NCBI GenBank assembly: GCA_949959185.1
Contig: CATLIX010000007.1
Location: 1-64,000 of the forward strand
Direction: 5' to 3'
DNA length: 64,000 bases
Source of the DNA: an uncultured Eubacterium sp.
GTDB taxonomy: Bacteria > Bacillota > Clostridia > Lachnospirales > Lachnospiraceae
Position numbers and translations under genes: made by a program. Within the stretch, counting starts at the first letter, position 1. The number at the start of each line of letters is the position of its first letter. Shown here piece after piece: positions 10,407 through 19,608 of the stretch. The notes beneath the pieces are model-generated. The model saw only the letters and a list, made by a program, of their open reading frames with translations. It ran no database searches and was not told the DNA's origin.

Positions 10407-10751
10407 CTAAGATACTTCTATTTCTTTAATCTGATGTTCATTTCCCTGTATCAGATATGTATGCTCGCTGCCGCAGTAAGGGCAGATTTTTCCATGCTCC
10501 ACCGTAGGGTAGGTTTCCTGACAGTCTTCGCAGTAAGTAATGGCCGGGATGGTCTCTATTACCAGCTCGCATCCGTCCATCCGCTGGCTTTTGGAGCATT
10601 TCCATTTCCAGCAGTCCTTCAGATAATAAGGAATGATGGTGGAAACTTCTCCAATCTGAAGGGTTACTTTTGTAATTTTGTCTGCCTGGTTTTCCTCTGC
10701 CACACGCTCTACGGTTTTCACAATATGAAACACGATTCCTAATTCATGCAC
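10407..10751 (-). CDS. hypA: HypA-family nickel metallochaperone
   Basis: The 114-residue protein begins with Met-His-Glu-Leu, giving the nickel ligand His2. The start codon is GTG with GGAGAG upstream. Two CxxC pairs (C74/C77 and C90/C93) form the zinc site. HypA delivers nickel to hydrogenase (and urease) with HypB. No hypB or hydrogenase gene is in the window. It is instead the last gene of an operon with a CooC-like nickel ATPase and a CODH/ACS-like protein, 24 bases after the FAD/Fe-S oxidoreductase gene. This context suggests a nickel protein other than a standard hydrogenase. Confidence 0.8.
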   Translation of the reverse strand: MHELGIVFHIVKTVERVAEENQADKITKVTLQIGEVSTIIPYYLKDCWKWKCSKSQRMDGCELVIETIPAITYCEDCQETYPTVEHGKICPYCGSEHTYLIQGNEHQIKEIEVS

Positions 10752-10775
10752 GGCTGCTCTCCATTCTGTGTCCCG

Positions 10776-13673
10776 CTATTTTATATGAGCCTGTTTTCTT
10801 CCTGTCTTCCGCTTTTCCGCAGTTTTCCCAGGTCTCCCGGTCTTTTTCCCGGCTTTTTTCACTGCCGGCTTATTGGCGAAAATGCTCTTAAATGCTTTTC
10901 CTGCCGCATAAGCTCCGATTTCCTTAAATTTATCCTCGGATCTGCTCATCTTTGAGCATTCGGGATGATCCCGGTGGAGTCTGATAGCGTCAAATTCGCA
11001 TTTGGTGGTACATACGCCGCAGCCGATACACTTGTTCTCATCCACAATGGACACGCCGCAGCTTAAGCAGCGTCCTGCTTCCAGATGTACCTGTTCTTCC
11101 GTCAGTGTCTTATGGGCATCCCGGAAGGAATGTTTATGGTCAATCTTTTCGTCCATGCCTGCTTCCTGACGTCCGATGGTGTCATAACCTTCCACCTTAA
11201 TATTCTTCTTGTTCAGTTCATGGAAATCCCGGCGGTTCCGGCCAATGGTCATGCTGGTGCCCGGATGTACATAACGGTGCAGGGATACGGCCGCATTCTT
11301 GCCGGCCTCAATGGCGTCAATGACAAACTGAGGCCCTGTATATACATCTCCGCCCACGAAAATATCGGGCTCTGCAGTCTGATACGTCAGAGCATCCGCT
11401 ACCGGGTAATTGCCATGCCAGAATTCCACTTTGCTTCCGTCCAGCAGACCGCCCCATTCAATGCCCTGTCCGATGGCAAAGATGACCTGAGCACAGTCCA
11501 CGGTTATCAGCTCGTCTTCGTCGTACTGAGGATTGAATTTTCCTTCTTCATCCAGTGTGGCGGTACATTTCTTAAATACCACGGACTGTACCTTTCCGCC
11601 GGAATCTTTGACAATCTCTTTCGGCCCCCAGCCGTTGTTGATTTTAATTTCTTCTTCCAGTGTTTCCTGAATCTCTTCATCGGAGGCGGGCATGGTCTCT
11701 CTGGATTCCAGACAGAACATTTCCACATCTTTTCCGCCGAAACGGTATGCGGTTCTGGCACAGTCGATGGCTACGTTTCCGCCGCCAATCACAATTACTT
11801 TGCCCTCCAGCTTCTGCTCCTGGTCTTCCGTTGCATGATGGAGGAAGTTCACTGCAATGTCAATGCCTTTCGCGTCATTTCCGGGAATAGGCGGAATCTT
11901 GCCGCCCTGGCAGCCGATGGCGATGTAGAATGCCTGGTATCCTTCCCTGCGCAGTTCATCCAATGTTACATCTTTGCCCACTTCCACGCTGCATTTTATC
12001 TCAACGCCAAGTGCACGAATCACGTCAATTTCTGCTTCAATCACGTCTTTTTCCAGTTTATAGGAAGGAATGCCGTAGGTCATCATTCCGCCCGGCCTTG
12101 CATGTTTCTCAAATACCGTGGGCTTATAGCCTTTTGTCGCCAGATAATAAGCGCAGGATAATCCGGCAGGGCCTGCTCCGATAATGGCAATTTTCTGCTC
12201 CCACTGAGTCAGGCGGTTAGAGGCAATCACCACCGGAGGAATGTATCTGGTTTCCTCATGGAGATCCTGTTCTGCAATGAATTTCTTAATATCGTCAATG
12301 GCCACCGGAGCGTCAATGGTGCCTCTGGTACATGCCATCTCGCATCGTTTGTTGCAGACCCGTCCGCAGATGGCCGGGAATGGGTTGTCTTTTTTAATCA
12401 GCGCCAGTGCTTCCTGATATTTTCCCTCTTTTGCCTTGCGGATGTAGCCCTGTACTGCAATATGGGCCGGACAGGCTGCTTTACAGGGCGCAGTACCTGT
12501 TTTGTAACAGTTAATCCGGTTGTTGTCCCGGTAATCTTCGTCGTATTTGTCTTTGCCCCATACCAGTTTGTCGGGCAGCTCGTGTTTGGGATAACGCACT
12601 TCTTTCCCGTTTTTCTTACAGAGCTTCTGTCCCAGCTTCACTGCGCCTGCCGGACAGTATTCCACACATTTTCCGCAGGCCACGCATTTTTCTTTTTCCA
12701 CCTTTGCGGTAAATGCGCTGCGGCTCATATTTGGGGTGTTAAACAACTGGGAGGTTCTCAGGGCGTTGCAGATATTCACATTACAGTTGCAGATTCCGAA
12801 AATTTTGTTTTCTCCGTCAATATTGGTAATCTGATGTACGAATCCGTTGTCCTCGGCTTTGCGGAAAATTTCCATGGCTTCTTCGTATGTAATATCATGG
12901 CCTTTGCCTGTCTCACGGCAGTAGTCTGCAAAGTCTCCCACACCGATACACCAGTTCATCTCGTCGTCGCCGCAGCCTTCTCCCAGTATCTGGCGGCTGA
13001 CGCGGCAGGAACACTGGCCCACGCCGATGTGGCCCTCATATTTTTTCAGCCAGTAGGAGATATGCTCCAGGTCAATGGTGCCGTTTTCCATGGAAATGGC
13101 TTTTTCCACCGGAATAACATGCATACCGATACCTGCACCTCCCGGAGGTACCATGTGGGTAATCCCGTCCAGAGGAATAAAAGTCATGCGCTCAAAGAAG
13201 CTGGCCAGAGCCGGATGTTCCCTGAGACGTTTGTTGCCTTCCGGCCCTTCTTCCATATTAAAGAGTTCTGCGGAACCGGGTACGAACATGGGCAGGCAGT
13301 ATCTGCGGTCTGTGGGCCCCGGAATGGAGCCGTAATGGTCGTAGTTATTGCCATAGTCATATTCCAGAAGGCCGATATAACTCATTTCATCCAGCACTTC
13401 CTGGAAATGCTCTTTCTCCTCTTCCTTCACATCGTTCATTTTCCAGAGTTCTTCAATTTTGTAATGGTGGCGGACTTTCATGGTCAGGGCAATGTCCGCC
13501 ATTTCCTCTGTGACGATTTCCGCCAGCCCCCAGTATTCCGGGTCGGCCACCGTCAGTCCTTTCAGTTTGTGTTTGGCCACATCTGTAATCTTTCTTCCAA
13601 GTTTCAGTATTTTTTCACTGGGTACCTTGTCTCCCATGTGAGGCGGAATAACCGCTTTGCTCATTTCCGGCAT
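10776..13673 (-). CDS. FAD/NAD(P) oxidoreductase with several Fe-S clusters
   Basis: The 965-residue protein has an N-terminal part of about 320 residues with cysteine motifs (CSCR near 221, ICNCN near 295). A ferredoxin-like cluster CVACGKCVEYC follows at 330-340. Next is a GltD-like module with its Fe-S cysteines (389-448), an FAD GAGPAG at 499-504 and an NAD(P)-binding GGGNVA. A second ferredoxin motif CIGCGVCTTKC lies near 900, with a lysine-rich tail of some 30 residues. It would move electrons from NAD(P)H to low-potential Fe-S partners in the cytoplasm. The operon partners make it a likely electron donor to the HgdB/activase system. That link is inferred from gene order. Confidence 0.75.
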   Translation of the reverse strand: MPEMSKAVIPPHMGDKVPSEKILKLGRKITDVAKHKLKGLTVADPEYWGLAEIVTEEMADIALTMKVRHHYKIEELWKMNDVKEEEKEHFQEVLDEMSYIGLLEYDYGNNYDHYGSIPGPTDRRYCLPMFVPGSAELFNMEEGPEGNKRLREHPALASFFERMTFIPLDGITHMVPPGGAGIGMHVIPVEKAISMENGTIDLEHISYWLKKYEGHIGVGQCSCRVSRQILGEGCGDDEMNWCIGVGDFADYCRETGKGHDITYEEAMEIFRKAEDNGFVHQITNIDGENKIFGICNCNVNICNALRTSQLFNTPNMSRSAFTAKVEKEKCVACGKCVEYCPAGAVKLGQKLCKKNGKEVRYPKHELPDKLVWGKDKYDEDYRDNNRINCYKTGTAPCKAACPAHIAVQGYIRKAKEGKYQEALALIKKDNPFPAICGRVCNKRCEMACTRGTIDAPVAIDDIKKFIAEQDLHEETRYIPPVVIASNRLTQWEQKIAIIGAGPAGLSCAYYLATKGYKPTVFEKHARPGGMMTYGIPSYKLEKDVIEAEIDVIRALGVEIKCSVEVGKDVTLDELRREGYQAFYIAIGCQGGKIPPIPGNDAKGIDIAVNFLHHATEDQEQKLEGKVIVIGGGNVAIDCARTAYRFGGKDVEMFCLESRETMPASDEEIQETLEEEIKINNGWGPKEIVKDSGGKVQSVVFKKCTATLDEEGKFNPQYDEDELITVDCAQVIFAIGQGIEWGGLLDGSKVEFWHGNYPVADALTYQTAEPDIFVGGDVYTGPQFVIDAIEAGKNAAVSLHRYVHPGTSMTIGRNRRDFHELNKKNIKVEGYDTIGRQEAGMDEKIDHKHSFRDAHKTLTEEQVHLEAGRCLSCGVSIVDENKCIGCGVCTTKCEFDAIRLHRDHPECSKMSRSEDKFKEIGAYAAGKAFKSIFANKPAVKKAGKKTGRPGKTAEKRKTGRKQAHIK

Positions 13674-13692
13674 AATGTTCTCCTTTCTTTTC

Positions 13693-14415
13693 TCATCCGC
13701 TGTAACTGTTTCGGTGTAATTCCTTCAGTCCTTCCACTTCATCGCAAATCTGCTTCAAACTGCAGGCGTTGCAGTCCATGGAAAGATTTTTCAGTACATG
13801 ATCTATTGCCTTTGTAATCTGTTCTGATTTTTTTAACCGGGCTTCCAGCTCTGCCCAGGGAAATTCCGGTCTGGTGACAAACATTAATTTTACCGCTTCC
13901 ACATCCCTGTTCTTATGATATGCTGCCAGAAACATACTGCCCACCTGGGCAAAGCCCAGTCCTTTCCGGAGGGCCTGTCTGCCCACCCGCACCGCCTCCC
14001 GCTCCTGCGCGGCGGAAACCCGCATCATAAACCCTTCGGGAAACAGGCGGTATCTGATGTACTCCAGGTTCCGTATACGGTTGTACAGCTCATTGCCTTC
14101 TCCCAGGCTGCCCTGTTTCATGCGTACCGCCGCAATTCTGGCATAAGGCCAGTCTTTACGGATTTCTCCCAGGTCTTTTCCGTACAGCAGGATTTCATCC
14201 TCCGGCACCAGTTCCTGATTCGTGGTAAGTATGGTGCTCCCCAGGGCCGGAAGTGTGCCTCCGCCCAGTTCATAAGCCATATCGCTGCGAAGAATCATGG
14301 CCTCTTTGCCCGTATCTTTCCAGCAGCTCTCTCCATGCTTATTCAGCCTCCGGGCCGGATATGCTTCCAGTCCCGCCAGTACTTCCCGCAGCACGTCGTC
14401 ATACAGTTTCATCAT
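13693..14415 (-). CDS. CODH/acetyl-CoA synthase beta-like protein
   Basis: The 240-residue protein resembles a domain of the acetyl-CoA synthase beta family (AcsB/CdhC). It has the AYELGGG segment near residue 47, FMMRVSAAQEREAVR near 129-143, and a C-terminal DCNACSLKQICDEVEGL with cysteines at 215, 218 and 224. It is far shorter than AcsB (about 730 residues) and no A-cluster motif is seen. It is therefore not an acetyl-CoA synthase by itself. The start codon overlaps the stop of the preceding 59-residue gene by one base. Family assignment is from memory of the pattern and should be checked by profile search. Confidence 0.5.
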   Translation of the reverse strand: MMKLYDDVLREVLAGLEAYPARRLNKHGESCWKDTGKEAMILRSDMAYELGGGTLPALGSTILTTNQELVPEDEILLYGKDLGEIRKDWPYARIAAVRMKQGSLGEGNELYNRIRNLEYIRYRLFPEGFMMRVSAAQEREAVRVGRQALRKGLGFAQVGSMFLAAYHKNRDVEAVKLMFVTRPEFPWAELEARLKKSEQITKAIDHVLKNLSMDCNACSLKQICDEVEGLKELHRNSYSG

Positions 14416-14594
14416 TACAGCCTGCGCTCCCGTTTCACCCGGTCATGCCATTTTTCCAGGTAAGGCTCCAGGGCTGCTGTCAGCTTCATATCCAGGTTAA
14501 AAAAATAAACGGTAAAGGAAATCAAAAAAAACGCAACTGCTGACAGGCTTACCACTTTCAGCACTTTTTTCACTGCTTTTCCGGTTTTCTTCAT
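14415..14594 (-). CDS. 59-residue single-span membrane protein
   Basis: The reading frame starts with an ATG that overlaps the activase stop as ATGA and ends in a TAATG overlap with the next gene, so it is tightly coupled on both sides. The product has a basic N-terminus (MKKTGKAVKKVLK), one membrane helix at about residues 14-33, and a charged amphipathic tail ending KWHDRVKRERRL. No family is known to me. Its placement inside the reductase operon suggests a membrane anchor or docking peptide for the complex. Confidence 0.7.
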   Translation of the reverse strand: MKKTGKAVKKVLKVVSLSAVAFFLISFTVYFFNLDMKLTAALEPYLEKWHDRVKRERRL

Positions 14595-15397
14595 ATTCTG
14601 TCCCCCTTACCCATTCCCTTTTGTCTGGCAAATTCTGCCGCTCCAAGGGCTCCGATTAACTGAGGGTCCACGGGGAGTTCAATGACCTTCAGCTTCAGTA
14701 CTTTTTCAATGGCGGCTTTCAGCCCTTCGTTCTTGGCACATCCGCCTGTCAGGGTGATTCTGTCCACCGCTCCCGCCTTTTTGGACATAACGAAGCACCG
14801 TTTTGCCACGGACAGCTCAATGCCCGCCGCAATCTCGTCCATGGGCTTTCCTTCCCCTACCAGGGAAATTACTTCACTTTCGGCAAACACCGTGCACTGG
14901 GAGGTAATGGGAATGACGTTTTTCGCCTTCAGGGCCAGTTTTGAAAATTCCGGCAAATCCATCTCAAAGGCCTTTGCCATGGCTTCAAAGAACCGCCCGG
15001 TTCCTGCCGCACATTTGTCGTTCATGGCAAAATTCTGTACGGTTCCGTCGGTATCCACAGCAATTCCCTTTACATCCTGTCCTCCAATATCAATAATAGA
15101 TCTGACCGTGGGGTCTGCCACATGGACGCCCATGGCATGACAGCTAATCTCTGAAATATTTTCATCAGCAAACGGAACTTTATTTCTTCCGTATCCGGTT
15201 CCCACCAGATAAGCCAGATCTTTGGCGCTCTCAAGTTCTTCCACCTGTTCTATGGCTTCATCCAGGGCCGCCTGTGCGCTCAGCACAGAATTGATACGGC
15301 TTTTCAGGGTGACATTTGCCGCCATTTTTCCGGTTTCATCTATAATCACACATTTGGTATAGGTACTGCCTGAATCGCAGCCTCCAAAATATCTCAT
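14591..15397 (-). CDS. ATP-dependent activase of the BcrA/BadF/HgdC family
   Basis: The 268-residue protein has the ASKHA fold signatures: GGCDSGSTYTKCVI at the N-terminus, GTGYGRN near 67, DIGGQDVKGI near 103-112 and the GGCAKN motif. Cys129 (DKCAAGTG) and Cys168 (SQCTVFAESE) match the ligands of the [4Fe-4S] cluster that bridges the homodimer. Such activases use ATP to push one electron at very low potential onto a 2-hydroxyacyl-CoA dehydratase, benzoyl-CoA reductase or double-cubane protein. The likely target here is the pair encoded upstream at 15645-18397. Confidence 0.9.
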   Translation of the reverse strand: MRYFGGCDSGSTYTKCVIIDETGKMAANVTLKSRINSVLSAQAALDEAIEQVEELESAKDLAYLVGTGYGRNKVPFADENISEISCHAMGVHVADPTVRSIIDIGGQDVKGIAVDTDGTVQNFAMNDKCAAGTGRFFEAMAKAFEMDLPEFSKLALKAKNVIPITSQCTVFAESEVISLVGEGKPMDEIAAGIELSVAKRCFVMSKKAGAVDRITLTGGCAKNEGLKAAIEKVLKLKVIELPVDPQLIGALGAAEFARQKGMGKGDRI

Positions 15398-15450
15398 ACT
15401 TTCGTCCTTTCTGTCTCATGTTTGTTCCTCGGTCTGTGATACGCATCCTG

Positions 15451-15555
15451 CTGTGAAAGCCGGAGGGTTTCACAGTACGTAACTATTCAGCCTTCGGCTT
15501 CATAGTTACTGAACCCGGCCTGTTCCAGTTTGCCTTCGGCAAAGAGGCCGGATTC
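15451..15555 (-). other. Cluster of three intercistronic hairpins
   Basis: The 247-base gap between the HgdB-like subunit and the activase gene contains three consecutive stem-loops. They are GTGAAA...TTTCAC (15453-15473), an 8-base outer stem with an inner GCC-GAA-GGC hairpin (15479-15509), and a long stem with another GCC-GAA-GGC core (15511-15555). None is followed by a clear T-run. They may process or stabilise the mRNA so that subunits and activase are made in different amounts. Confidence 0.5.
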
Positions 15556-15644
15556 TTCTCAACCATTACACATTCTCACGAACTTTGCAGCAAGTGCAAA
15601 GTCCTGGGCTGAACTGTTACCACAGTACAGCAGCTCCTGACATT

Positions 15645-17198
15645 TTACCAGGAGGCGGCATCGTCGATTTCTTCCAGGCTTGGGTCCAGCGGTTCTTCCC
15701 GCAGCACGCTTCGCATATAACGGTTTACGTCCTGTCTGAGACTCGCCCTTGGCACCACGCGGGGGTCCATCAAATCGTGTACCGCCCATATTAACCGGAT
15801 ACCGTGTTCCCTGGCCTGTTCTTCAAACAGCCCGTGCATTCCGTCCAGGGCCTTACAGCTCATGTGCTCCCACAGGATAACCATATCCGCATGGAACTGC
15901 TCGCAGAATCTCCACAGATCATCCAGCAGCACCTTATATCCTCCGTGGGTACGGTTGCGCATAATCATATTCTCGTAGAGATGGGCCATATCGTAAATGG
16001 CCTGCTCCGGGTCGTCCTCGGAAATCATTTTCGTGGACACCAGACTCAGCATATCCACCAGGGGCAGAATTCCCCAGCAGTTCTGCAGCCAGGGCAGGAA
16101 ATCCGTATAATACTGGGCCTGCACGCCCCATATAATGGCCCGATGGCGGTACTCCGGCACAATCATTTCTTTCTTCCTGTAAGACTCCATGGCCAGCCGG
16201 GTAATCTTTTTATCCGCTTCCAGAAAGGCCGGCACTTTTCCGCCAATGGCCATGTACACCGTCTCCGTATACAAGGCCAGATTTGCTCCGATAACCTGAG
16301 GATATTCCGTGGTACTTAAATCCAGCCATTCCATCCGTTCTCTTGTCTCCGCATTAAACCGCTTTGCACATGCAAAATATGCGTCCCAGTCCCAGGTCTC
16401 CCCGGTACAGTCTTCAATAAATTTAATGGCATTGCGGATTTCCTGAGCCGCATATTCCTGCACGCCTTCTTCCGTATGGCGGATAGGGGCCGCTAACTGG
16501 AAACAGGGAATGCCATGTTCTCCTTCCAGTCTTCTGGCTATTACGCCGTTTCCCATCAGACTGCCGTCGCAGGTGGTGTTGCACTGGATGGCGCAGGCGC
16601 CGAAAATGGGATAATCATCGTCAATGGACACGCCCACTTCCGCCTCCGGCATGGGGCATACGTCCCCGGAAAGACCGTATTCCTGCGCCACATCTATGTA
16701 AGGACACACTGCGTCCTGCTGCAGCAGCACACTTACATACACTGCGGGAATCTCCCGGCCCACGCCGATAAGATTGGGAAAACCGCACAGCAGATGGGAC
16801 ATTTCATTTTCATCCAGGATAACCAGTTTTTTTGAAAATTCCTCATCGTTTCCAGTATTTTTATCGGCACGGAACATGTTTGCCATCAGCTTTGCAATAT
16901 CTTCTACCACCAGATCATATTCCGTGTGGGCAATCCGGAGCTGATTTCCCCGAAGGCCCGCCGTGTGCCGGTCCACCATCATGGGAACAGCCAGATAATT
17001 CAGCATCCAGCGGTACCGGAAAAATGCTTTCACATTGTTTTTATTCAGCATGAATTTCCCCAGGACGCCCATGGTATGAAGCCAGCGGCTGTAATCGTAA
17101 AGGGTGTCTTTCACGCCCCGCCATTCCCGGCGCCTGCGGACCTTTTTCCCTGGCCGGTACAAATCTCCCAGCCGTTCACTTCCGATTTTCCTGCCCAT
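15645..17198 (-). CDS. 2-hydroxyacyl-CoA dehydratase / benzoyl-CoA reductase-like subunit, cysteine-rich
   Basis: The 517-residue protein belongs to the HgdB/BcrC-like superfamily, whose members hold low-potential Fe-S clusters. Candidate cluster cysteines are Cys165, Cys181 and a tight set at Cys202, Cys206 and Cys210 (GACAIQCNTTCDG). It is longer than typical HgdB (about 380) with a basic N-terminal extension. Its start overlaps the stop of the preceding subunit gene by one base (TAATG). With the 399-residue neighbour it probably forms a heterodimer reduced by the activase. The substrate is unknown. Double-cubane-cluster reductases are a possible relative, suggested by the crowded cysteines. 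Confidence 0.7.
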   Translation of the reverse strand: MGRKIGSERLGDLYRPGKKVRRRREWRGVKDTLYDYSRWLHTMGVLGKFMLNKNNVKAFFRYRWMLNYLAVPMMVDRHTAGLRGNQLRIAHTEYDLVVEDIAKLMANMFRADKNTGNDEEFSKKLVILDENEMSHLLCGFPNLIGVGREIPAVYVSVLLQQDAVCPYIDVAQEYGLSGDVCPMPEAEVGVSIDDDYPIFGACAIQCNTTCDGSLMGNGVIARRLEGEHGIPCFQLAAPIRHTEEGVQEYAAQEIRNAIKFIEDCTGETWDWDAYFACAKRFNAETRERMEWLDLSTTEYPQVIGANLALYTETVYMAIGGKVPAFLEADKKITRLAMESYRKKEMIVPEYRHRAIIWGVQAQYYTDFLPWLQNCWGILPLVDMLSLVSTKMISEDDPEQAIYDMAHLYENMIMRNRTHGGYKVLLDDLWRFCEQFHADMVILWEHMSCKALDGMHGLFEEQAREHGIRLIWAVHDLMDPRVVPRASLRQDVNRYMRSVLREEPLDPSLEEIDDAASW

Positions 17199-18397
17199 TA
17201 CTTCTCACCTCCCCTGCTTTTCCGCAGCTTTTTGATTTCGATACTTTCCACAAAGGCCTGTACCCGTGTCCGAAGCTGGCCGGAACTGCCTACCGCATAA
17301 GGCCGGTCTACGGAAAGTACCGGATATCCGTATTCCTCCCGCAGTACATGGGTGCCCACCATCCGCTCGTAGGCCCAGTAATCGCAGAATTTCATCTGCT
17401 CATAAATGATTCCGTCCGCATGGTATTCTTCGGCAAGCTGATTTACATAGAGACGCCTTCCCTGAATCTTCTCCCGGTTCATGTAACGGGCGCACTGGCT
17501 GGCATACATGTAATGGCGGCACACCTGTGTCAGCACATCTTCTTTCTGATTCAGGGGAATCTCCTCCCGGCCCGGCAGTGCTCCGAAACAGAACCGGTCT
17601 GCCACCACCAGCGCTCCCGCTTCTTCTATGAGCTTTATCATATCCACATCGTCAATCTCCGAACCTGCCACCATCACTCTGGCCCGGAACTGTTTCCGGT
17701 CGTCGGGCTCTCTGGCCTTTAACTCCTCCAGGGTTTCTTCCAGCATATCCATCAGCATGTCTTTGGGGCATACATAGGAAGCCAGTGTGAGCATGTGGTA
17801 TTCATATCCTGTAATCCGGGGATTTTCTTCTTTCCGGAAATCTCCGATTTCCGTGAGCAGCCGGCAGATCTTATTGTGATTCTCCACTGCCTGCTCCAGG
17901 GCTTCTTCTGAAATATCAATGCCGTATATCTCATGAAGGGGCTCAAGAATCTTACTCCTGCATTCCGACACATACACAGACAGTCCGTTATCGTCGGCTT
18001 TCATGGGAATCTCCATATAACGGTAGAAAAACTTTTCTTTGGACATGGTGTTCAGAAGTTCCATGTTCTCCACCGCCCGATTAATCATGGAGCAGGCGTC
18101 CGGCGCAATCAGACCGTCCAGGAACTGATAACCGCCCTCAATGGCCCGCTCCAGCAGGGCCCTGCTGTATTCGCACAGAAAACTGGTCATATAATAGGTA
18201 CCCATATCCATGGAACCTGTTCTGGGCGCCCGAAGCCGGACGGTAAAGACTCCCGGAAGCTCCAGCAGCACTTCCGGCACCAAGCTGCATACAGTTCCAA
18301 TGCAGATTTTCCCCTCTTCCTGGGCTTTGCGAACCAAATCGTTATTGGCCTCCTCCAGCAACCGTTCAAACTCATATAAATGTTTTAAATCTTTCAT
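17198..18397 (-). CDS. HgdB-family subunit (second half of the reductase)
   Basis: The 399-residue protein has the two-lobed HgdB fold signs: GTVCSLVPEVLLELPG near residue 33, DACSMINRAVENM near 104, and ASQCARYM in the C-terminal lobe, ending with the KFCDYWAYE and VLSVDRPY segments typical of the family. It sits 12 bases after the CooC-like gene, with AAAGGAGG as ribosome-binding site, and overlaps the 517-residue gene. In characterised relatives such subunits bind one [4Fe-4S] cluster and the thioester substrate. The actual substrate here cannot be read from sequence. Confidence 0.8.
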   Translation of the reverse strand: MKDLKHLYEFERLLEEANNDLVRKAQEEGKICIGTVCSLVPEVLLELPGVFTVRLRAPRTGSMDMGTYYMTSFLCEYSRALLERAIEGGYQFLDGLIAPDACSMINRAVENMELLNTMSKEKFFYRYMEIPMKADDNGLSVYVSECRSKILEPLHEIYGIDISEEALEQAVENHNKICRLLTEIGDFRKEENPRITGYEYHMLTLASYVCPKDMLMDMLEETLEELKAREPDDRKQFRARVMVAGSEIDDVDMIKLIEEAGALVVADRFCFGALPGREEIPLNQKEDVLTQVCRHYMYASQCARYMNREKIQGRRLYVNQLAEEYHADGIIYEQMKFCDYWAYERMVGTHVLREEYGYPVLSVDRPYAVGSSGQLRTRVQAFVESIEIKKLRKSRGGEK

Positions 18398-18409
18398 GTA
18401 TCCTCCTTT

Positions 18410-19177
18410 TCAAACACGCTCCAGGATATGTATCTTCTCCAGGGCCGCCCGGACGCCCCGGACAATGGGCGCATCCTCCGGCAGGTAAAATACGTTTTCT
18501 CCTTTTAAATCAAATTCTGTCAGTGCCCTGTCATCCTGTATTCTGGCCAGAACCGGAAGATTTCCCACATCCATATAAGAGGCTGCTTCCGGAGAAGGCA
18601 GGCGGTTGAAAATCACCCCGGCTTCCTCGTACATCACCAGTTCATCCGCTACTTTCCGTATAGTCTGCACCACCTGGGTCCCTTTTCTGCTGGAATCCGT
18701 AATCAGAAGCAAATGGGTCACCTTTTCCATTACACGCCGGTTAATCTGTTCAATCCCGGCTTCTCCGTCAATCACAATATAGTCAAAATTTCCGGAAAGA
18801 ATCCCGATTACTTCTTTCAGATAACTGTTAATCTTACAGTAGCACCCTGCCGCTTCCGGTCTTCCTACTGCGATAAAAGAAAACCCGTCCTGCTCCACCA
18901 GTGCGTCAAAAATCCGGTACCTTGCTTCTCCCAGGAGTTCAATGGCTCCTGCGGCGTCACCGCGTTCCGCCTGAGCCACTACCTCTCTGCGGATATCGTC
19001 CACCGTCACTTTTGTCTCCAGACCCAGGGCAGTGGAAAGTCCCACTGCCGGATCCGCGTCAATAGCCAGTATCTTTTTTTCAGGAAAAGAAGACACCAGC
19101 ACTTTCACCATTGCAGCCGCCAGGGACGTTTTTCCCACGCCTCCTTTCCCGGCTACTGCCAGAATTTTCGCAGCCAT
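18410..19177 (-). CDS. cooC: CooC-like nickel-insertion ATPase
   Basis: The 255-residue protein is a deviant Walker A (GKGGVGKT, residues 10-17) SIMIBI ATPase of the MinD/CooC group. It carries the CxC pair C112-Y-C114, at the same numbers as the metal-binding CxC of CooC from Carboxydothermus. CooC loads nickel into the C-cluster of CO dehydrogenase. No CODH gene is present here. It is the first gene of an operon that ends with a HypA-like chaperone, so two separate nickel-handling proteins flank an HgdB/activase set. Confidence 0.8.
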   Translation of the reverse strand: MAAKILAVAGKGGVGKTSLAAAMVKVLVSSFPEKKILAIDADPAVGLSTALGLETKVTVDDIRREVVAQAERGDAAGAIELLGEARYRIFDALVEQDGFSFIAVGRPEAAGCYCKINSYLKEVIGILSGNFDYIVIDGEAGIEQINRRVMEKVTHLLLITDSSRKGTQVVQTIRKVADELVMYEEAGVIFNRLPSPEAASYMDVGNLPVLARIQDDRALTEFDLKGENVFYLPEDAPIVRGVRAALEKIHILERV

Positions 19178-19383: not shown

Positions 19384-19608
19384 TTAACAGATGAAAGACA
19401 TGATTTTTTCCCTGATGGCAGAATCTTCCGAATCGTATTTCAGGCATAAGGGGCCTGAAAAATCCAGCGCCATCACACCAAGAATTGATTTTGCATCCAC
19501 AACTCTCTGTCCGGAACCCAAATCAAAATTGGCATCACATTTGTCAATAATATTTACAAACTGTCTGATTTGTTCCACGTCACGAAATCTCACATTCACC
19601 TGCTGCAT
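19384..19608 (-). CDS. HPr-like (Crh-type) protein lacking the catalytic histidine
   Basis: The 74-residue protein keeps the second half of the HPr fold, including DAKSILGVMAL, which matches the regulatory Ser46 motif of HPr. The usual GLHARP motif with the phosphotransfer His15 is absent. The region reads RDVEQIRQF instead. Such a protein cannot relay phosphate to sugar PTS proteins. It could still be phosphorylated by HPr kinase and act as a CcpA co-repressor, as Crh does in Bacillus. It is monocistronic, with a promoter at 19702-19730 and a terminator at 19284-19320. Confidence 0.7.
   Translation of the reverse strand: MQQVNVRFRDVEQIRQFVNIIDKCDANFDLGSGQRVVDAKSILGVMALDFSGPLCLKYDSEDSAIREKIMSFIC

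Follow-up and report, generated by a model that had tools for sequence, protein, structure and literature searches.

A CooC-type ATPase and a CdhC-like protein accompany an HgdBA-type reductase in gut and rumen bacteria: a candidate nickel-linked reductase module

The superfamily of benzoyl-CoA reductases (BCR) and double-cubane proteins is, to our knowledge, known for chemistry of very low potential that relies on iron-sulfur (Fe-S) clusters only. The window considered here, that is the whole analysed stretch of 64,000 nucleotides (nt) from an uncultured Eubacterium sp. of the Lachnospiraceae, carries a minus-strand run of eight genes in which two subunits of this superfamily (HgdB and HgdA, together HgdBA) and their activase are encoded next to a CooC-type ATPase, a CdhC-like relative of acetyl-CoA synthase (ACS) and HypA, and this raises the question of whether such a reductase may employ nickel and which of the neighbours belong to it. 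The run consists of two modules: module 1 (13693–19177), with CooC, HgdB, HgdA, the activase, the small protein TM59 and the CdhC-like protein in this order, and module 2 (10407–13673), with an IsrA-type flavin adenine dinucleotide (FAD)/Fe-S protein and HypA. Module 1 is read as an ATP-driven low-potential reductase of the BCR/2-hydroxyacyl-CoA dehydratase (HAD)/double-cubane kind, for which CooC would complete a nickel-containing Fe-S site, and this reading as a whole is judged to be evenly poised between right and wrong. Its parts differ in strength: the predicted reductase architecture and the coupling of CooC to module 1 are well supported, while nickel is plausible.

The eight open reading frames (ORFs) are as follows (minus strand throughout; lengths in amino acids, aa):

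18410–19177, minus: CooC-type P-loop ATPase, 255 aa, with GKGGVGKT and C112-Y-C114; match to 3kje at 5e-16
17198–18397, minus: HgdB-type subunit, 399 aa, predicted BzdN-like [8Fe-9S] double-cubane subunit; Pfam HGD-D 303 bits
15645–17198, minus: HgdA-type subunit, 517 aa, predicted open-site [4Fe-4S] subunit with a fold of BCR, HAD and double-cubane cluster protein (DCCP); Pfam HGD-D 123 bits
14591–15397, minus: BcrAD/HgdC-type activase ATPase, 268 aa, with C129 and C168; TIGR00241 222.6 bits, cut-off 125.4
14415–14594, minus: TM59, 59 aa, with a single hydrophobic stretch (by eye) and conserved YFFNLDMK; without family match
13693–14415, minus: CdhC-like protein, 240 aa, predicted ACS middle domain with C-terminal C215-x2-C218-x5-C224-x9-H234
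10776–13673, minus: IsrA-type FAD/Fe-S oxidoreductase, 965 aa, GltD-like, with a six-Cys site
10407–10751, minus: HypA, 114 aa, GTG start; Pfam HypA 111.8 bits

All eight are present in the ORF list of the window, from 19177 down to 10407. Base 17198 is common to the HgdB and HgdA genes, base 14415 is common to the TM59 and CdhC-like genes, and the activase and TM59 genes overlap by 4 nt; the gene list and the overlapping stops and starts proposed in an earlier sequence-only reading are thus borne out. The same holds for three identities given there: a CooC-like ATPase with the C112xC114 pair, a BcrA/HgdC-type activase with Cys129 and Cys168, and HypA with His2, which is accompanied by two CxxC pairs (C74/C77 and C90/C93; these and H2 in 35/35 sequences) and passes the Pfam cut-off of 28.9 bits, while missing the NCBIfam equivalog cut-off (80.8 bits against 88.1).

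Conservation of module 1 and separability of module 2

Around relatives of the CdhC-like protein 79 loci were collected and all eight window proteins were mapped on them; 58 of these loci extend 6 kb or more beyond the CdhC-like gene on its upstream side, and 48 have flanks on both sides. At the 58 loci CooC was found 56 times, HgdB 52 times, HgdA 53 times, the activase 58 times and TM59, by tblastn, 55 times, with two of its three misses (L089 and L097) recovered by motif scan. The order CooC-HgdB-HgdA-activase-TM59-CdhC was kept at 48 of the 58, and the ten deviating loci comprise two that lack only the tblastn match to TM59, four without local HgdBA, two without local CooC and two that are rearranged (L094 and L095). 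No local HgdA is present at L028, L046, L050, L058 and L082, each of whose genomes holds one elsewhere; at L037 the contig ends before HgdA, and two partial HgdA pieces lie on two other contigs.

At the genome level the CdhC-like protein was detected by profile search in 16 of 195 related genomes, and HgdA (at least 400 bits) and module-type CooC (360 bits or more; next match 181.5) occur in the identical 16 (Fisher p 9e-24 pairwise, uncorrected for kinship). Left out of the HgdA count were five genomes at 24–44 bits (G048, G052, G127, G140 and G173), and out of the CooC count all matches up to 181.5 bits; at E 0.001 the CooC profile matches 176 of the 195 genomes, other P-loop ATPases included. 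Since the three markers occupy identical genomes, module 1 is a real unit, and CooC, lying upstream of the CdhC-like gene at 56/58 loci, is no chance neighbour.

The six-gene unit recurs in scattered gut and rumen bacteria: it was found in 13 of 154 genera among the relatives searched, namely in Lachnospiraceae and their relatives, and its loci include named isolates, e.g., of Pseudobutyrivibrio and Emergencia. In a class-level sample the CdhC-like profile matched 11 of 391 genomes, seven of them with the short form (ORFs of 234–249 aa) and four with long, ACS-like ORFs (537–715 aa). In a phylum-level sample it matched 42 of 398, where the short form occurs in the window genome (G000) and in G747, and the other 40 matches lie in ORFs of 403–784 aa. 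The G747 locus (L158), from another class, encodes CooC, a CdhC-like protein that exceeds the Pfam CdhC cut-off (53.9 bits), an HgdB in which six Cys are seen by eye, an HGD-D protein of 466 aa and two activases, and it adjoins two acyl-CoA dehydrogenases. To judge from its gene content it is a distant version, in which CooC and the CdhC-like protein are joined to a four-subunit set resembling benzoyl-CoA reductase. The same stretch (L158, 8596–15971) also encodes a protein of 594 aa that matches nothing in Pfam or NCBIfam at E 1e-4.

The genes of module 2 behave differently. At the 48 loci with both flanks, and with FAD-protein matches below 45% identity excluded, the FAD protein and HypA were both present at 25, both absent at 19, and represented by HypA only at two and by the FAD protein only at two; thus they mostly travel together and are optional. 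The pair also stands without module 1 in three relatives of the same genus (L133, L134 and L135), whose genomes (G023, G020 and G015) were negative for the CdhC-like protein, HgdA and CooC; in G010 separate contigs carry the FAD gene and module 1 (L137 and L138). In the ORF list an antisense ORF masked any HypA at L136 and L137. HypA had been proposed as a partner of HgdBA, and this assignment is rejected in view of its pairing with the FAD protein and of the stand-alone loci. As to the proposed check of whether CooC, HypA and the reductase genes always co-occur, co-occurrence was found for CooC with HgdA, in the same 16/195 genomes, and failed for HypA. Because the FAD-HypA pair is separable and CooC is bound to module 1, CooC is informative on HgdBA and HypA is hardly so. 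Beyond the FAD protein and HypA no dedicated flanking genes were found at the loci, save a HypB-like gene at eight of them (by eye), and other families recurring in at least 10 loci resemble, by eye, syntenic Pseudobutyrivibrio genes or widespread families, for instance ABC ATPases.

The pair itself is of an already published kind, as far as its sequence features indicate. In Kronen et al. 2023 (PMC10134865) IsrA is described as a putative isoprene reductase, an FAD/Fe-S oxidoreductase of 901 aa whose six-Cys site includes Cys180xCys182 and Cys254xCys256, and HypA is located near 73% of 988 IsrA homologs. The 965-aa protein has C221xC223, C242, C295xC297 and C302 in 37/37 sequences; the features of IsrA clade 9, that is the six-Cys site, two CxC motifs 74 residues apart exactly as in IsrA, a GltD-like core and a HypA neighbour, are all present, as far as a comparison by features goes. 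A second IsrA-type gene (912 aa) lies elsewhere in the window genome (G000:C1, L132, 5866–9684), preceded by a HypB-type gene and followed by HypA, and no NiFe-hydrogenase was found in this genome.

IsrA-type genes were present in 13 of 16 module-positive and in 27 of 179 module-negative genomes, counted by hand at about 590 bits or more and with only about four candidates per genome scored, so that absence is unsure. IsrA is thus enriched with module 1, and it appears to be neither necessary nor sufficient. This enrichment bears on the proposal that HgdBA and its activase are not the catalyst and serve as a reductive activase, the nickel site to be activated being that of the CdhC-like protein or of a different nickel enzyme, for instance the IsrA-type one. 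A precedent exists in the methyl-coenzyme M reductase (MCR) activation complex, in which complex Fe-S clusters form the electron path to nickel F430 (PMC12176620); furthermore, no fixed catabolic neighbours except IsrA accompany the module. The three module-positive genomes without a detected IsrA-type gene and the 27 module-negative ones that have it speak against the proposal, as do the acyl-CoA dehydrogenases adjoining the L158 version, which would be expected beside a catabolic enzyme, and the proposal is considered rather improbable.

As to transcription, the run had been taken for a single operon, and this description has to be divided: the eight same-strand ORFs agree with it, while two separable modules and an internal gap do not. 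This gap of 247 nt (15398–15644, minus strand) between the HgdA and activase genes is predicted to fold into successive hairpins (-87 kcal/mol, z -4.4; none of 200 shuffles equally stable), no minus-strand terminator-like site was found within it, and of 64 corresponding gaps measured in homologous loci 48 are at most 134 nt long. One transcript for the whole run is likely despite the gap. An HPr-like small protein (19384–19608, same strand; 21.2 bits against the Pfam cut-off of 23) is encoded just upstream of CooC.

The predicted reductase core

The best PDB match of HgdB is BzdN (8s02_B, 1.3e-24). The [8Fe-9S] cluster of BzdN is held (PMC11971306) by Cys36, Cys73, Cys100, Cys263, Cys293 and Cys327; HgdB C37, C75, C102, C270, C302 and C338 align with these six residues, and each is conserved in 67–69 of 69 sequences. 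HgdA is more divergent: its HGD-D match begins at residue 157, it has an extra helical N-terminal region, PDB matches of its profile are DCCP, MbdO, HAD alpha and BzdO, and with its AlphaFold2 (AF2) model (pLDDT 81.4) the top 20 Foldseek matches are all BCR, HAD or DCCP. C181 (73/73 sequences), C210 (72/73) and C448 (73/73) lie at positions of [4Fe-4S] ligand type in the alignments with DCCP, MbdO and HAD alpha, and by analogy they would be equivalent to Cys95, Cys128 and Cys380, given as the [4Fe-4S] ligands of BzdO in the same source (PMC11971306), where His131 is the acid/base catalytic residue. A counterpart of this His is absent from HgdA, which has S213 at C210+3 as judged by offset, not by structure superposition; S213 is invariant in 25 sequences. 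The activase residues C129 and C168 are invariant (79/79), and module 1 contains a single activase gene in place of the two unlike activases of class I BCR.

The named enzyme types of NCBIfam do not take up this pair. With the DCCP model (NF040772, cut-off 350) HgdB scores 151.4 and HgdA 27.5 bits, with the HadC model (2-hydroxyacyl-CoA dehydratase, cut-off 700) HgdB scores 107.8 bits, and the BCR, DCCP and HAD cut-offs are missed. From the retained BzdN-type and [4Fe-4S] ligands and the missed cut-offs it follows that HgdBA should work like a BCR-type pair outside every named enzyme type.

HgdBA also occurs in other settings. A stand-alone HgdBA lies at L128 (5943–15158) beside metK-like (by eye), NifH-like, two NifD/K-like and methylthioadenosine/S-adenosylhomocysteine (MTA/SAH) nucleosidase-like genes, in a genome whose CooC and CdhC-like genes are located elsewhere, at L046. 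Second, divergent HgdBA pairs stand beside the module at L131 (1137–4336) and L144 (11904–15109), with their own small hydrophobic protein (FYFDLDGK motif).

CooC, the CdhC-like protein and nickel

The C112-Y-C114 of the window CooC aligns with the CYC of CooC1 (3kje), is invariant in 65/65 sequences and is combined with the deviant Walker A motif of CooC; weak matches to other P-loop family proteins (MinD/NifH, Fe-S carriers) appeared in the Pfam and NCBIfam searches. In a tree of 28 sequences, with long branches and with group labels assigned by position and eye, 20 module CooCs fall on one side of a branch with support of 91/94, below the 95/80 mark; nearest to them are three CooCs beside carbon monoxide dehydrogenase (CODH)-like genes, and four AcsF-like sequences lie apart.

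This position matters for the proposal that nickel is not involved and that the CooC-like and CdhC-like proteins assemble or insert the [8Fe-9S] or [4Fe-4S] cluster of an otherwise ordinary double-cubane reductase or dehydratase. CooC-type ATPases indeed share their P-loop family with Fe-S carriers and MinD/NifH, and HgdBA carries a complete set of plain Fe-S ligands. Against it stand the CxC kept in every CooC aligned and the nearest tree group of CODH-linked CooCs; moreover, BCR, DCCP and HAD systems elsewhere are not known to employ CooC. The nickel-free explanation is considered unlikely, though the less so of the two alternatives named so far.

Linkage of CooC to a Ni-CODH was not seen in the host, a 3.4-Mb draft genome of 98% completeness, in which no Prismane-family protein (PF03063), no ACS and no [NiFe]-hydrogenase were found. 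Among 14 genomes searched PF03063 gave no match in G000, G024, G009 and two others and matched CODH or hybrid cluster proteins in the remaining nine; no NiFe-hydrogenase was found in 13 of the 15 module-positive genomes searched (G010 left out), and two have partial matches of 69 residues. Because the host has no detected CODH, ACS or [NiFe]-hydrogenase, CooC most likely serves a module 1 protein, and it may be HgdBA or the CdhC-like protein that receives nickel from it.

The CdhC-like protein gives a weak Pfam CdhC match (21.8 bits, cut-off 24), and its relation to ACS is evident in other comparisons. A profile of 29 aligned members has 15 PDB matches down to 3e-4, all CODH/ACS chains (best 5.6e-7); the structural model (pLDDT 90.6) retrieves ACS in all of the top 21 Foldseek matches; and hhalign against ACS gives a probability of 96.9 and E 1.3e-10 over ACS 321–483 only. 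On these profile and model comparisons it is predicted to be the ACS middle domain alone (ACS residues about 299–483), and with 240 aa and this alignment range an A-cluster domain with Ni-binding Cys is not found. The earlier label of a CODH/ACS-beta-like protein is thus right as to the ACS relation and has to be narrowed to the middle domain, without the catalytic part. Its C215, C218, C224 and H234 are kept in 84/84 aligned sequences (L158 being outside the alignment). An equation of C215 and C218 with A-cluster Cys was weakened: it was seen only against one ACS (global and local), and the profile-profile alignment ends earlier. At the position of ACS Trp418, which we take to be a CoA contact, the PDB-profile alignment places Met130.

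A further explanation is that module 1 might be the missing non-canonical CODH/ACS of certain Lachnospiraceae. In Valk et al. 2020 (PMC7000372) enrichments of 'Ca. Galacturonibacter soehngenii' incorporated bicarbonate carbon into acetate and had CODH activity without CODH/ACS genes, and relatives without the full complex include Pseudobutyrivibrio xylanivorans and Butyrivibrio fibrisolvens, both of which names are found among the module loci (L021 and L023). The idea is weakened by the corrinoid Fe-S protein (PF03599), of which no full-length copy exists in 15 of the 16 module-positive genomes; only G053 has one, and the rest show nothing or weak partial matches of up to 26.6 bits. Also, the CdhC-like protein is without the ACS catalytic domain, and the name 'Ca. 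Galacturonibacter soehngenii' is on 0 of the 79 loci, although its genome may be outside the collection. This explanation is regarded as highly improbable.

Returning to the ATP-driven, CooC-served reductase, families, cluster ligands, co-occurrence and module separability were computed, whereas nickel, its site, the electron route and the membrane tether are inferred. The activase, which is presumably homodimeric and would hold a [4Fe-4S] cluster with its C129/C168 pairs, would send single electrons to HgdB at the expense of ATP; HgdB would store them on its six-Cys [8Fe-9S] cluster, as in BzdN, and hand them to the open-site [4Fe-4S] cluster at C181/C210/C448 of HgdA, as in BzdO, where the substrate would be reduced. 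CooC would complete a nickel-containing Fe-S site, located either on HgdA or at the Cys3(His) motif in the C-terminal part of the CdhC-like protein. The latter protein could be a docking or CoA-binding subunit, and TM59 might serve as the membrane tether of the complex. Together with HypA, the IsrA-type protein would be a second, independently matured reductase that may act next in the same reductive pathway. A more specific version makes HgdBA the first protein of the BCR/double-cubane superfamily to depend on nickel, an ATP-driven reductase combining [8Fe-9S] with a Ni-Fe-S site that its dedicated CooC would install and a stand-alone ACS middle domain would help to hold; it is put forward tentatively and is somewhat more doubtful than credible. 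A nickel site at HgdA C202/C206/C374 was dropped as a firm claim, since C206 is lost in seven distant members and C202 in one of these, L131b.

The substrate may be guessed to be a conjugated or unsaturated (CoA-bound) compound, in view of neighbouring C=C reductases. The IsrA-type protein, a neighbour of this type, is found at 27 of 48 loci. Old yellow enzyme (OYE)-type reductases occur at 5 of 102 loci taken by a selection rule (matches below 250 residues excluded): beside the module in L131, L142 and L143, 0.6 kb off in L144 and 4.5 kb off in L124. The L144 protein, the sole one compared with the family library, was nearest to bilirubin reductase and BaiCD, under their cut-offs.

Several observations weigh against the proposed reductase. 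Nickel is uncertain because the P-loop superfamily of CooC-type ATPases also includes Fe-S carriers, and urease and lactate racemase were not among the nickel enzymes searched in the host. Two of the 58 loci (L081 and L082) have no local CooC, and their genomes were not searched for one elsewhere. At L158 H234 of the CdhC-like motif is Arg (by eye), and neither C202 nor C374 of HgdA is seen (by eye, unaligned). The structured gap interrupts the run. The substrate clue is weak, because OYE neighbours are uncommon and both the FAD protein and HypA are missing at 19 of 48 loci. In balance, from the earlier idea of a nickel and Fe-S reductase the CooC coupling is supported, the HypA link is lost and the nickel stays conjectural.

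Novelty and comparison with known systems

No published description of module 1 was found in the searches made of the open-licence PMC literature. What is new is that an HgdBA-type reductase is accompanied by its own CooC-type metallochaperone and by an ACS-middle-domain protein, and this gene combination may be a sign of a metal enzyme of a new kind. If nickel is true, the BCR/double-cubane superfamily gains a nickel branch; if the reading as a whole holds, CooC has a client other than CODH, and a part of acetyl-CoA synthase has a stand-alone use. Even without nickel, a six-gene unit with three marker genes co-occurring without exception in the searched set, and with no assigned function found for it, is a clear target.

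Among the known systems the class I benzoyl-CoA reductase BzdNOQP (8s02) is similar in the [8Fe-9S] ligand pattern of HgdB, in the three Cys of HgdA at predicted [4Fe-4S] ligand positions and in the BcrAD-type activase; module 1 differs in its one activase, in S213 for His131, in the extra N-terminal helices of HgdA, in the addition of CooC, the CdhC-like protein and TM59, and in scores under the NCBIfam BCR cut-offs. DCCP with its reductase (6eno, 7yyl) shares the six-Cys double-cubane pattern of HgdB and the one activase, while module 1 has two unlike subunits, the CooC and CdhC-like additions and an NF040772 score under the cut-off. The CooC of Ni-CODH operons is alike in Walker A, the GCYC motif and the nearest tree group, and the window CooC differs in being linked to HgdBA in a host without detected CODH. 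With acetyl-CoA synthase (AcsB/CdhC) the middle-domain fold and profile (about residues 299–483) are common, whereas the CdhC-like protein has neither the N-terminal nor the catalytic A-cluster domain and has its own C-terminal Cys motif and Met130 for Trp418. The IsrA-HypA system of Kronen et al. 2023 agrees in the six-Cys site, the identical CxC spacing and the adjacent HypA, and the window pair differs in lying downstream of an HgdBA module. Finally, the ATP-driven MCR activation complex is a functional analogy, in which ATP-driven electrons pass via complex Fe-S clusters to nickel; its clusters reside in McrC and Mmp7 (PMC12176620), and no MCR is claimed for module 1.

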